DNA of 41,032 nucleotides, taken from a virus. Below, one piece after another: positions 32,820-41,032 of this stretch (the first letter of the stretch is position 1; each line of letters opens with the position of its first letter). The position numbers and the translations under genes are program-made. Below the pieces are notes generated by a model. The model was not told the origin of the DNA. It searched no databases and worked only from the letters and a program-made list of their open reading frames with translations. The stretch spans positions 1 to 41,032 of IMG/VR virus record IMGVR_UViG_3300045257_000121. The stretch is one strand, 5' to 3'.

Positions 32820-33168
32820 CGATGATGCCACCGCAATGCGGGCACGTTGCCGGGCCAGACGACGCCGTCACGCGACCCTCGTGCGCCTGCTTGGTCTCGC
32901 CCTGCCACGCGCGCGATAGGCCAAGGGTCAGGTCACTGCCGTCGATCAGTTCGTCGATCGTGTTGGCGCAGTTGTTGGAGTAGTCGATCGCGGCGCGCGA
33001 TCCCCAGCGATAGACCTGGCCGTCAGGGAGCGTCTTGCAGATTTCGACGCCGATCTGGTTCTTGTAATCGAAGAACTCGGCATGCGTCGCGGTGTAGCCG
33101 GCCGGCAAGCGTTTCTGCACGGCTTCGAGCCACTCCGCCGCGGTCGGGATGCTGTTCTCGTCCATCAT
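32812..33168 (-). CDS. hypothetical protein between portal and virion enzyme (118 aa)
   Basis: Beta-alpha pattern (PAGYTATHAEFFDYKNQIGV; YRWGSRAAIDYSNNCANTID) ending in CPHCGGIIDG, half of a zinc ribbon. Overlaps the portal start. Not recognised. Confidence 0.6.
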   Translation of the reverse strand: MMDENSIPTAAEWLEAVQKRLPAGYTATHAEFFDYKNQIGVEICKTLPDGQVYRWGSRAAIDYSNNCANTIDELIDGSDLTLGLSRAWQGETKQAHEGRVTASSGPATCPHCGGIIDG

Positions 33169-34580
33169 ACCATCGCCGCATTGAACATCGGCGCCATTAT
33201 CGACGCCAAATATGCATACCCATTGTCGTTCGGATGCACTTGATCTGCCTGATAATATGTCAAATTAGTACACTGTCCAGCCTGCCCCATATTGGGGTCC
33301 GACGCAATGTCGAAGACAAAATCCCAATTTCCCAAAGCGTTCGCTACGAGTCCCTGATTATAGGTGATTCGATCACTTTCCTTGGTGGTTCTCGGCAGCA
33401 TCGTAACAACGGCGATTCTACTTCCGCCGGTTCCCCACCCCGCGGATCTGCGTGCCGCACAGTATGTATTTGCGAAACCAAGAGTGGCGACCCCGGTTGA
33501 TCCATTCGCCACTATATCGTTTGTGCCGCCAAACAGCACAGTTAGGTTATTGCGCAATGCTGGATCATACCAACCATCAACCTGTGATGGGCCGGCCGTG
33601 ATCATTGCCGTATTAATTGTCTGCCCGACAACGGCATTTGTCGCGAAACGACTATTCCTATTTAGCTTCGGCTGGATGAGGGTTGACCAGCCAGTGAGAT
33701 CGGTTGCGGTATACCCGTAGGTGATGCTATCGCCCATCAAGACGACTTGGTCATTGACCGTCGTCGGGATGTTGAGGATGGCCATCAACCGCGAATGCAG
33801 AAGCGCCGCGTTGGCATCAGACAGCTGCGAAGACCACATGCCCATGCACACGGCATCCACATGGGACGCTTGCGTGACGGCAGCGTAGTAGCCGAGCGTC
33901 ACGCCGGCAGGGAGCGCCAGATTCAGCGTCACTTGCGACATGTTTTGGAAGACGCCATTGACGCCCACCTTCAGGATTGACCCCGAGGCGAAGGTCTGAA
34001 CAATCGGGCTCGTCTGCGTTCTGAAATTCGTGGTCTGTGCGCCCGACGTGCCGTTGAGTAGGAGCTTCAGATTCTCATTCGCCATCACGACGCTATTGCC
34101 GGCGTCGATGAGGCCATGATTGAAGTTTGAAAGTTGGATACGGCCAGCCAGCAGCATGGAGAACGATCGCGTCGACCCGGATGCCAGGGCCGACGCCACC
34201 ATGAATTCCGTCCCCGCTGCGCCAAAAGCGAGCGTAGGAATGCCGTTTATCGATATGTTGTACCATTGCGGCTGGCTTGCCGTGGTTGCCTGGACAGCGT
34301 GGTTCCCGCCCCCTGTCTGGTCCCACCATTGCGTTACGGCGACGGTGGTCCCCGCCCCCCACGCCGCTAGCGTCGCTATGTCGAGCTTGTTGTTTCGACT
34401 ATAGCCGATATCGATTGTTGCGCTGTCGCTGGCCCGGACGAACGATGCGAGCGGCCCTGTGTAGGTCGTCAGAAGCCGAATGGCGCCCCACGCGGCGCTG
34501 GGTGCCGTCAGACCATCCAATATCGGCGCAAGCGCCCCTGAGAACTGGCTGCCGAGCAGATATCCCGGCCGCAGGAGCAT
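33165..34580 (-). CDS. virion-type SGNH/GDSL hydrolase with N-terminal ConA-like domain
   Basis: 471 residues. Residues about 27-250 resemble the concanavalin-like domain of arabinofuranosidase-B type phage proteins (LLTTYTGPLASFVRASDSAT; VTQWWDQTGGGNHAVQATTA). Residues 280-471 are an SGNH hydrolase: block I GDSIT (Ser285), GGTND (N354), and D446-QV-H449 completing the triad. Such enzymes cut ester groups, usually acetyl, from polysaccharides; as part of a virion this helps pass capsule or LPS. The gene is between terminase and portal. DNA for the hydrolase part (33165-33740) is less GC-rich than the N-terminal part. Confidence 0.82.
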   Translation of the reverse strand: MLLRPGYLLGSQFSGALAPILDGLTAPSAAWGAIRLLTTYTGPLASFVRASDSATIDIGYSRNNKLDIATLAAWGAGTTVAVTQWWDQTGGGNHAVQATTASQPQWYNISINGIPTLAFGAAGTEFMVASALASGSTRSFSMLLAGRIQLSNFNHGLIDAGNSVVMANENLKLLLNGTSGAQTTNFRTQTSPIVQTFASGSILKVGVNGVFQNMSQVTLNLALPAGVTLGYYAAVTQASHVDAVCMGMWSSQLSDANAALLHSRLMAILNIPTTVNDQVVLMGDSITYGYTATDLTGWSTLIQPKLNRNSRFATNAVVGQTINTAMITAGPSQVDGWYDPALRNNLTVLFGGTNDIVANGSTGVATLGFANTYCAARRSAGWGTGGSRIAVVTMLPRTTKESDRITYNQGLVANALGNWDFVFDIASDPNMGQAGQCTNLTYYQADQVHPNDNGYAYLASIMAPMFNAAMV

Positions 34581-37559: not shown

Positions 37560-37757
37560 TTAGGTTTGCCGCGCTTTTGGCATTTCGTAGGTTTTCACGT
37601 CCGACGTTACGTCGTCGATTTCCCATTGGGCCGGATACATGCCCCATTCGCGATCCCAGCGGCGGAATGCGAGCATCATCTGGATTCGGCGATGGCGCAA
37701 TGGTTGGATCGCAGACGGTGCTAGCGGGATTGGTTCGTCGAGATGGTCGAACATCAT
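37560..37757 (-). CDS. small hypothetical protein (65 aa)
   Basis: ATG at 37757 overlaps the end of the replication-partner gene. Arg/Met/Trp-rich (FRRWDREWGMYPAQWEIDDV). Not recognised. Confidence 0.5.
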   Translation of the reverse strand: MMFDHLDEPIPLAPSAIQPLRHRRIQMMLAFRRWDREWGMYPAQWEIDDVTSDVKTYEMPKARQT

Positions 37758-38464
37758 GCGATCCTTTCGGCCGCTCGCCGCAATCCAGCTTGGATCGCCC
37801 GGCGCTTTTTTACACGCCAGTCCAGCGATTCCTTCAATTCCGACCATGCCGGCCAGAACTTCTCGTTTCGAGCCCATGCGCGCATCGCATCGACCACCAC
37901 GTCAGACGGGTATTCCGATAGGTATTCGGCATATGCGGCGAGCATCAGCGTCAGATCCTCACCAGCCTCTGCGCGTGACTTGGTCGTGACCTTGAGACGC
38001 GCTAGTTCGTTGACGATGGTGACGCTTGGAGCGGGACGCAGCGTCTGCTCGACCATCCACAGAGCGCGCTTGATGTCCTCTAGCGGCGCTTCGCCTACGT
38101 TGTAGGAAACCAATTCCACGTCGTAACCCCAGCGTTCCGTGGTTCGGTCAACCGTTACCGGAACGAGCGCCGAGGTTACGGAGGGCGGCAACGACGCCCA
38201 CAGGCTCTTGTCGACCAGCGTAGGATTGTTGGCCGCGAACGCCTCGCGGACGCTTGGCAATCTCTCGGCAGCGGTTGCGCCACGTTGCGCACCAATCGAC
38301 TTTGACGCCGCGGGCTCCTGGCTGGGCGATCCAATAATCTCGGAATTCAAGTTTTGTCTCGTCGGGATCGAGGCCGAGACCGTGCGCAAATTCTCGGCAG
38401 TCGGGATCAGGCTCCCAATCTGCTGGAAGCCTCGATCCCCTCGTTCCTGTCGATCGTCGCTCAT
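37754..38464 (-). CDS. replication-region protein, possible helicase-loader role (236 aa)
   Basis: AGGAG nine nt before ATG 38464. Residues 1-105 are polar and overlap the DUF1376 gene in another frame for 317 nt; residues 106-236 are helical with TERWGYDVELVSYNVG, WMVEQTLRPAPSVTIVNELA, MLAAYAEYLSEYPSDVVVDA and a Trp/Lys-rich end (NEKFWPAWSELKESLDWRV), a pattern I link with phage replication accessory proteins. Its order after the initiator copies lambda O-P, so helicase loading is a guess. The true start might lie further in if the overlap is not coding twice. Confidence 0.6.
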   Translation of the reverse strand: MSDDRQERGDRGFQQIGSLIPTAENLRTVSASIPTRQNLNSEIIGSPSQEPAASKSIGAQRGATAAERLPSVREAFAANNPTLVDKSLWASLPPSVTSALVPVTVDRTTERWGYDVELVSYNVGEAPLEDIKRALWMVEQTLRPAPSVTIVNELARLKVTTKSRAEAGEDLTLMLAAYAEYLSEYPSDVVVDAMRAWARNEKFWPAWSELKESLDWRVKKRRAIQAGLRRAAERIA

Positions 38465-38966
38465 CGGTTTTCGCTCCTGTCGGTTCGTCCGTCTTTGGTG
38501 ATGCGTTAGCATCACTTTCTTTCTTACTTTCTTCTATTAGTTCTGTAGTTAAGTAGTTGGTTCTGTCGTCCGTTCTGTCGTCCGTTCTAACGGCCGTTCT
38601 GAACGGTTTTAGGTTTTTCAACGACTTACCGGTTGCAGATGATGCAAGACCGGCCCCCCTCTGCTGATCGATTTTTCTCGCAGATTTTTCGAGTTCCTTG
38701 CGGCATCTGGCGTTGGTTATGCGCCCGTCCAAAACCTCTATTTTCCCTGATTCTACGAGTTTCGATTTGATCGTTTTCCAGCGCGATCCGACCTTAGTCA
38801 TCCAGGCAAGTTTTCGGTCATCGTCAGCCAAACGATCGTTGGTCGCGTAAATCATATCGATGACCCGGCGATATGCGATCTCCTCCCAAACGTCGAGCAT
38901 TTGGGTTCCATCAAGAAAATCCTTGGCGCAGTACTCGACAAAGAGGCCGTTGCGAGGATTTGACAC
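38148..38966 (-). CDS. DUF1376-type phage replication protein
   Basis: 272 residues, GTG start directly after the XRE gene. N-terminal LFVEYCAKDFLDGTQMLDVW, RRVIDMIYATNDRLADDD and KLVESGKIEVLDGRITNARC match DUF1376 (YdaU-like) winged-helix proteins found at phage replication loci. A charged linker (AVRTDDRTDDRTNYL) is coded by the iteron repeat region. The C-terminus (WEPDPDCREFAHGLGLDPDE, then KVDWCATWRNRC) is the second conserved block common in such replication proteins. Probably initiates replication at the repeats inside its own gene. Confidence 0.78.
   Translation of the reverse strand: MSNPRNGLFVEYCAKDFLDGTQMLDVWEEIAYRRVIDMIYATNDRLADDDRKLAWMTKVGSRWKTIKSKLVESGKIEVLDGRITNARCRKELEKSARKIDQQRGAGLASSATGKSLKNLKPFRTAVRTDDRTDDRTNYLTTELIEESKKESDANASPKTDEPTGAKTDERRSTGTRGSRLPADWEPDPDCREFAHGLGLDPDETKLEFRDYWIAQPGARGVKVDWCATWRNRCREIAKRPRGVRGQQSYAGRQEPVGVVAALRNLGARSGNG
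38512..38606 (-). other. candidate replication origin: iterons plus AT-rich tract
   Basis: On the leftward strand four copies of an AGAAC(GG)-centred 12-bp unit lie at exact 12-bp spacing (plus-strand GTTCT at 38560, 38572, 38584, 38596). A fifth lone copy is at 38540. Next to them is a tract about 48 bp long (38512-38559) that is about 70% A+T in a genome of roughly 60% GC. This is the plan of the lambda origin inside gene O, and it lies inside the probable initiator gene. Type given as other because no class for origins exists. Confidence 0.6.
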
Positions 38967-39173
38967 TTAGGCGCCAATCATCTCAATCTCAGCCCCGAGC
39001 GCCCTCGCCCATGCGACGGCATGCTTGAGCGTCGGGGATCTCTCACCACGCTCCCAACTCCCAAGCGCTCGGATCGTCACCCCAACCTCATGCGCAATCT
39101 GCTTGCGGCACAGTTTCGATGTCTTGCGCCGCGTCGTGAGACGGGCCGCGATGCCAGTTTGTGGATTGGTCAT
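38967..39173 (-). CDS. XRE-family DNA-binding regulator (68 aa)
   Basis: A single helix-turn-helix: SKLCRKQIAHEVGVTIRALG followed by SWERGERSPTLKHAVAWARA, the standard XRE shape. Short size suits a phage Cro/antirepressor-type control protein or a regulator for replication genes. ATG at 39173 with GAGG upstream. It lies directly before the replication gene, after a 107-bp gap. Confidence 0.78.
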   Translation of the reverse strand: MTNPQTGIAARLTTRRKTSKLCRKQIAHEVGVTIRALGSWERGERSPTLKHAVAWARALGAEIEMIGA

Positions 39174-39280
39174 TCGTCTTCGCCTCACTTCGCCAAGGGA
39201 AACCGTGAGCGCGGCGCCATAGTGCCTATCCGGCGAAGGAAGATGGCGTAGCGGCTCGTCGTCGGTTCATGACTCCCGAC
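39174..39280 (-). other. intergenic stretch before the XRE gene
   Basis: 107 bp without a gene. It contains inverted pairs CGCCAT...ATGGCG and TTCGCC...GGCGAA, which can form alternative structures. Likely regulatory because it precedes a regulator and the replication genes; no convincing promoter was read. Confidence 0.4.
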
Positions 39281-40351: not shown

Positions 40352-40546
40352 TTATTCGACTTCTTCTGTGAAGTCGTGCGCGGTAACCTCACCGTTCGTA
40401 AACTCGGCGATGCGTATTGCGAGGGAGCGCCCAATCCACGTCTTGCCGTTGATCAGCTCACTGATCGTAGCGGTCGATGCGCCGACCGAGGCGGCGAAAT
40501 CCTTCTGCTTGATATTCTCTCGGGAGAGCCATTGATCGAGTTTCAT
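40352..40546 (-). CDS. Cro/CI-type helix-turn-helix regulator (64 aa)
   Basis: [20 protein letters not shown] with [20 protein letters not shown] is a full Cro/CI-like helix-turn-helix, usual size for Cro-type phage regulators. It is transcribed leftward, back-to-back with the pentapeptide operon. A palindrome (40599-40612) lies between the divergent starts as a natural operator. A -10-like hexamer only six nt before the ATG suggests a leaderless transcript, as lambda cI has from its maintenance promoter. Confidence 0.82.
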
Positions 40547-40678: not shown

Positions 40679-41032
40679 ATGAAATACGAAATCAAACGCG
40701 CCTCGTGGTCCTCGCTTCCCTCGATCAAGGTCGAGATCGGTGCGGAGTTCGATAGCGCCAGCGGCGCGGTGAGGCTCGGCGCAGCGGTCAAGGTCGCTTT
40801 CGGCAGCGATGCCGACCTGCGCGATGCCGACCTGCGCGATGCCGACCTGCGCGATGCCGACCTGCGCGATGCCGTCCTGCGCGGTGCCGTCCTGAGCGGT
40901 GCCGACCTGCGCGATGCCGACCTGAGCGATGCCGACCTGCGCGATGCCGACCTGCGCGATGCCGACCTGCGCGATGCCGTCCTGCGCGGTGCCGTCCTGA
41001 GCGGTGCCGACCTGCGCGATGCCGACCTGAGC
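40679..41032 (+). CDS. pentapeptide-repeat protein, N-terminal part (runs off the window)
   Basis: ATG 40679 with GGAG at 40669-40672, six nt before it. An ATG at 40613 is in frame but lies before the likely transcription start. Residues 1-44 are a non-repeat beta-like cap ([20 protein letters not shown]), then about 15 pentads (D/G)A(D/V)L(R/S) continue to the edge. Fits the C-terminal part at 3-623 as one gene, though direct joining of the window ends leaves two extra bases and breaks the frame, so some repeat sequence is missing. Confidence 0.85.

Follow-up and report, generated by a model that had tools for sequence, protein, structure and literature searches.

Replication origins lying within a gene are established for the O genes of lambdoid phages (PMC7466680, PMC5043065), and in lambda the loader gene P adjoins O. 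The Rac prophage of E. coli is reported to carry an active origin, oriJ (PMC3945230), and work with oriJ plasmids is cited in PMC11014345. Here, we describe a DUF1376 gene whose organization recalls that of lambda O, and in which the segment 38498-38600 is very probably a phage replication origin embedded in the gene of its initiator, as judged from sequence and comparison with relatives.

The stretch of DNA analysed (hereafter "the window") spans the 41,032 bases of an IMG/VR virus record. It carries P22-like genes for portal and terminase, and between these a GDSL lipase/arabinofuranosidase-like protein is encoded (33165-34580, minus strand). A 15-bp tandem array of CGCGATGCCGACCTG, which can read ADLRD (a pentapeptide-repeat pattern), is common to both window ends (18-296 and 40806-41029), and this suggests a circular or permuted genome whose ends divide a single array, though the record is classed as linear. 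Near 39.9 kb the cumulative GC skew passes through a shallow minimum, to which we gave no weight because gene orientation changes near there. Two short ORFs upstream of the DUF1376 gene (38967-39188 and 40352-40546, minus strand) look like HTH/Cro-type regulators, in an order that recalls the ydaS-ydaT-ydaU-ydaV region of Rac.

The DUF1376 gene product matches PF07120 over residues 15-93 (Pfam profiles, 1.1e-11; 45.4 bits, above the gathering cut-off of 30.1), and its best PHROG is 3992 "primosomal protein" (7.6e-21), followed by 1408 "replication initiation protein" (1.8e-15). AlphaFold2 models the N-domain as a helix-turn-helix with a beta wing (pLDDT about 95-98 over most of the domain); Foldseek returned only weak generic winged-helix matches (MarR winged helices and the DnaD N-domain 2vn2 among them), and a protein-profile search against solved structures gave no credible match. 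The C-domain is helical and folded in the model, is recognised by a family HMM built in the present analysis, and matches PF17948 (DnaT) at 0.003 and 17.7 bits, below the curated cut-off of 25. Between the two domains, pLDDT is about 46-60 across most of the linker, and GC3 is 0.44 vs. 0.61 and 0.58 in the domains. It is within this disordered linker that the repeats lie, as the sequence-only reading of this DNA had held.

Table 1. Features of the DUF1376 locus in the window.
Feature	Position	Strand	Basis or detail
DUF1376 gene, candidate replication initiator	38148..38966	-	272 aa
DUF1376 domain at the N-terminus, with a predicted winged helix; proposed to bind the iterons	38688..38924	-	AlphaFold2, Foldseek
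Interdomain linker, disordered, hosting candidate origin	38433..38687	-	pLDDT, GC3
Four 12-bp iteron-like units, AGAACGGCCGTT / AGAACGGACGAC / AGAACGGACGAC / AGAACCAACTAC	38553..38600	-	AGAAC starts exactly 12 bp apart
Unit 1, AGAACGGCCGTT	38600-38589	-	AGAAC start
Unit 2, AGAACGGACGAC	38588-38577	-	AGAAC start
Unit 3, AGAACGGACGAC	38576-38565	-	AGAAC start
Unit 4, AGAACCAACTAC	38564-38553	-	AGAAC start
A+T-rich, purine-rich tract, candidate DNA unwinding element	38511..38558	-	27% GC
Fifth AGAAC, not in frame with the four units, 20 bp past unit 4	38540..38544	-	
Hairpin GTGATGC-TAAC-GCATCAC, directly after the AT tract	38498..38515	-	perfect 7-bp stem, 4-nt loop
Extra ACGGACGA copy beyond the hairpin	38485..38492	-	
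C-terminal DnaT-like domain, proposed loader/helicase/ssDNA-interacting module	38256..38432 (about residues 179-237)	-	weak PF17948, own family HMM, AlphaFold2
Next gene, candidate helicase-loader position, start uncertain (ORF open from 38515)	37754..38146	-	place next to DUF1376 gene

Four AGAAC(GG) units 12 bp apart had been proposed for this linker; position and period were borne out, and the GG was not in the last copy, AGAACGG occurring in units 1-3 only and unit 4 reading AGAACCA. TRF scores the array at 63 (38560-38601, period 12, 3.5 copies), the top tandem array of the window if the two terminal 15-bp arrays are excepted. The units are direct repeats, partly palindromic only in the first two (CCGTTCAGAACGG, CCGTTAGAACGG), and are not 18-19-bp inverted repeats of the lambda iteron type. 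Neither AGAACGG (7 vs. 4.7 expected) nor GAACGGACG is significantly over-represented as a word in the whole window, an exact search of viral contigs with the two-unit array found no match, and a genome-contig scan with the window protein alone as query gave no confirmed match. The linker as a whole holds 16 repeated 8-mer pairs vs. 3.3 expected (synonymous codon permutation, p-value 0.005), an excess surpassed among the 47 other window ORFs only in the terminal-array ORF. Within the 72-nt array, the synonymous shuffle gives p = 0.34, as the RTDD protein repeat alone yields period 12, so that the case at the DNA level depends on relatives.

Taken by itself, the window array would agree with a low-complexity protein linker in which replication slippage multiplied RTDD units, its DNA period being a by-product of the protein: RTAVRTDDRTDDRT is visible in the protein, synonymous shuffling of the array brings no rejection, and the two identical 12-mers look recently duplicated, the relative L119 being without the duplication. 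The wider family makes this account very unlikely. From 112 loci and annotated phages we retained 80 genes with both domains in one frame, and 43 non-redundant genes once similar linkers were removed. Taking within-linker synonymous permutation as the expectation, the linkers of these genes, whose loci are not fully independent, contain 432 repeated 8-mer pairs vs. 131 expected (27 of 43 genes at p < 0.05), compared with 30 vs. 29 in the N-domains and 32 vs. 24 in the C-domains. A held-out set of 36 genes, mostly fetched later, gave 316 vs. 86 pairs in the linker and also reproduced the GC3 dip and the hairpins described below, and the ori region of lambda O, used as a positive control, gave 20 vs. 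2.25 with the same statistic. Repeats are thus in excess three- to fourfold in the linker only, and the pattern is absent from other ORFs of the same loci, an excess of at least five being found in 29 of 43 DUF1376 genes (67%) vs. 11 of 260 other ORFs (4%, p-value 4e-21). In addition, the spacing of 74 of the 138 maximal repeats is not divisible by three; with over half of them out of frame, these are not simple peptide repeats. Inverted copies in the E. coli gene ydaU, and a 12-bp register kept in L121 with a different peptide (both detailed below), likewise speak against slippage.

Across the 43 genes, GC3 averages 0.58 in the N-domain, 0.43 in the linker and 0.57 in the C-domain, and the AT minimum falls inside the linker in 31 of them, the linker making up 31% of the length. 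Common repeat spacings are 11/12/22/33 bp and 6/7/14/21 bp, usually in a set order along the gene: a clade-specific motif (GTTCAAC, GCGAACGC/GCAATGC, AACCCA...) recurs at steps of 11/22/33 or 12 bp and is succeeded by an A-rich tract of 6-7-bp tandem repeats (AACCAGA, AACCATA, AGAAGAG), after which part of the family has a hairpin. The repeat core varies between clades, and there is therefore no universal motif. About a third of relatives (e.g., L033, L023, L103, L089) have no significant repeat excess on this statistic, and the array of L002/L122 is weak.

The class of repeat follows the N-domain. On the N-domain tree we count 6 changes of repeat class, vs. a mean of 12.6 and a minimum of 8 in 300 shuffles, and on the C-domain tree 13, with classes named by eye from the same data and trees built on few columns. 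C-domains are swapped in L119, L121, L122 and L124, the first three of which are related to the window through the N-domain and differ from it in C-domain and linker protein. In L119 the repeats stand in 12-bp register (CGAACGGACGTT/CCATCCGCCGTT/GGAACGGACGCC/CGAACCAACTAC) and in L121 CGG(A/T)CG cores recur at four successive 12-bp steps; this CGGACG-type register is clearest in these two loci and weaker in L120 and L122. With up to one mismatch, AACGGACGTTC occurs once per whole contig in L119 and in L120, each time in the linker. The sequence-only reading had named a linker protein kept while the DNA period and the AT tract were lost as one outcome that would count against an origin, and the opposite was found: the linker proteins of L119 and L121 differ, and the register stays.

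Directly along the gene, the units are followed by the AT tract, the hairpin and the C-domain. An AT-rich tract of ~48 bp abutting the units had been claimed beforehand, and 38511-38558 indeed has the second lowest GC of all 48-mers in the 41 kb (38512-38559, at 29% GC, is within the lowest 0.06% of window 48-mers). The hairpin, overlooked in that earlier reading, is one of two 7-bp inverted repeats with a 4-nt loop in the window; a 141-nt segment folded as single-stranded DNA does far better than its shuffles (z = -7.1), and on the plus strand of the window the hairpin resembles an intrinsic terminator with a T-rich tail. Similar hairpins stand at the linker end in L018, L003, L012, L107 and other relatives, with loops that are mostly TAAA, TAAC, TATC or TAGC and, on the coding strand, a run of A preceding the stem; the opposite strand again resembles an intrinsic terminator. 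Linkers with a stem of at least 7 bp and a 4-nt loop number 12 of 43 vs. 1.65 expected (held-out, 11 of 36 vs. 1.43), with no excess of such hairpins in the N- or C-domains. Two-sided changes affect 9 of 10 pairs in 12 aligned hairpins, but these rows were selected for having hairpins, and the unbiased support is thus given by the hairpin counts.

The next gene had been placed at the position of a helicase loader. This was upheld by the relatives, among whose neighbouring genes are DnaB, loaders of the DnaC-like and P-like types, and a primase zinc ribbon, but not by the gene itself, which has no Pfam or PHROG family and no recognised loader signature; its identification as a recognised loader (lambda P or DnaC) was accordingly dropped. 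It shares 39% identity with the gene at the equivalent place in L089. Its open frame (37754-38515, minus strand) has 368 bp in common with the DUF1376 gene, at the 3' part of the latter and in another frame, and the true start is probably near 38150.

Natural alleles in E. coli separate the two halves of the system. YdaU of the K-12 Rac prophage matches DUF1376 (2.7e-26), ydaU is followed by the DnaC-like ydaV, and its linker has 9 direct repeats vs. 3.0 expected, 8 inverted vs. 1.35 and a GC3 of 0.24, with direct and inverted copies of TGTTCAAA after which comes the gene's lowest-GC 40-mer. Strain UC4316 has an N-domain and repeats like those of ydaU (94.8% over nt 52-506 of ydaU) in a protein matching PF07120 (5e-26) and PF17948 (2.8e-17, above cut-off), next to a replication protein P (PF06992, 3e-15). 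In strain M18 the C-domain and ydaV are those of K-12 (87% over nt 485-855), and the N-domain and repeats are different ones. The switch between alleles lies at nt 485-506, directly 3' of the repeats (386-468). These swaps imply that iterons go with the N-domain and the loader, from YdaV to lambda P, with the C-domain. We predict that oriJ lies in ydaU.

These data also bear on two further readings. The repeats might be operator sites through which the DUF1376 protein or a nearby Cro-like regulator controls transcription, as the predicted winged helix and the HTH-like short ORFs upstream would allow; we consider this very unlikely, as a place inside the gene, 3' of its first domain, is unusual for operators, and the AT dip beside the repeats, the replication-gene neighbours, the lambda O parallel and the E. 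coli swaps, in which helicase loaders take part, all favour replication. That the linker is a recombination joint, its repeats and hairpin serving as boundaries that promote swaps of N- and C-domain modules, would fit the E. coli switch just 3' of the repeats and the C-domain swaps in L119, L121, L122 and L124, but is extremely improbable given that the repeats travel with the N-domain rather than forming a shared joint and that a clade-specific core offers little homology for recombination, and such a joint could in any case exist alongside an origin, as a secondary effect.

The supported reading is thus an in-gene origin of the lambda O kind whose (predicted) DNA-binding domain is a different one. 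In such an origin, the winged-helix N-domain of DUF1376 would bind the 12-bp units, and the resulting nucleoprotein complex would, by analogy with lambda, melt the adjoining A+T-rich tract. The DnaT-like C-domain would then handle the exposed strand and recruit the helicase through a loader encoded by the adjacent gene, a step supported by E. coli, where C-domain and loader change together. The hairpin that follows the tract on its 3' side may be an accessory element that perhaps helps in priming or in the entry of a primosome, or it may block antisense transcription.

More generally, DUF1376 appears to be a replication starter with its binding sites and melting region in its own gene, a pattern seen in dozens of unrelated phages. 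The initiator role suggested earlier is in this sense strengthened by the family-wide linker repeats, AT dip and hairpins; it is not wholly new, since PHROG annotations exist and DUF1376 genes are already annotated sporadically as "primosomal protein", "replication initiation protein" or "protein O". Among open-licence papers, none that connects DUF1376 with an origin came to light, which is weak evidence of absence. It is tempting to go further and propose, tentatively and as a single joint claim, that DUF1376 proteins form a widespread unrecognised modular class of initiators, in which a winged helix is inherited with in-gene iterons and combined with exchangeable helicase-recruiting domains, that oriJ is the ydaU linker, and that, in some members, a hairpin of conserved structure (loop often TAAA/TAAC/TATC/TAGC) beside the unwinding tract is an additional part of the origin. 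If true, this would give a function to a Pfam family of "unknown function" that is present in phages and in prophages (E. coli K-12 has one such case), make origins locatable by sequence in many uncultured phages, and provide a set of initiator and origin modules that are exchanged in nature; should oriJ prove to be the ydaU linker, the Rac origin of K-12 would gain both a place and an initiator.

Among known systems, lambda O and ori-lambda share with the window an N-terminal DNA-binding domain (predicted in the window), mid-gene repeats and then an A+T-rich tract (PMC7466680, PMC5043065), and the lambda-like order anticipated from the window sequence, with repeats between the domains and the AT tract on the C-terminal side, is present. 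Past the A+T tract, on its 3' side, the lambda record also has an inverted repeat (GTCAGAG...CTCTGAC). However, in lambda O dimers bind iterons that are inverted repeats of 18-19 bp, whereas DUF1376 units are 11-12 bp apart, and the window protein, with its PF07120 N-domain and DnaT-like C-domain, is not recognisably homologous to O; no sequence match to lambda O was obtained with DUF1376 proteins, that of UC4316 included. Iteron plasmids (P1, F, RK2 type) similarly have phased direct repeats adjoining an A+T-rich region (PMC5043065), but with other initiator families, and their iterons are not described in PMC5043065 as lying within an initiator-gene linker. Closer to the window, Rac ydaU-ydaV has DUF1376 with TGTTCAAA repeats and an AT dip in the linker and a DnaC-like gene next to it, but differs in C-domain and repeat core, and the UC4316 DUF1376-DnaT protein has the two-domain architecture of the window with a loader alongside, but a different host and repeat core, the window's next gene not being recognisably P. 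Finally, Burkholderia phage Bcep176 gp11, a "primosomal protein", combines a C-domain of the window type with an HTH_36 N-domain, and its linker carries many GGAACAGTCCCAAA-type repeats (L005, 2350-2530), so that in-gene repeats reach beyond DUF1376.
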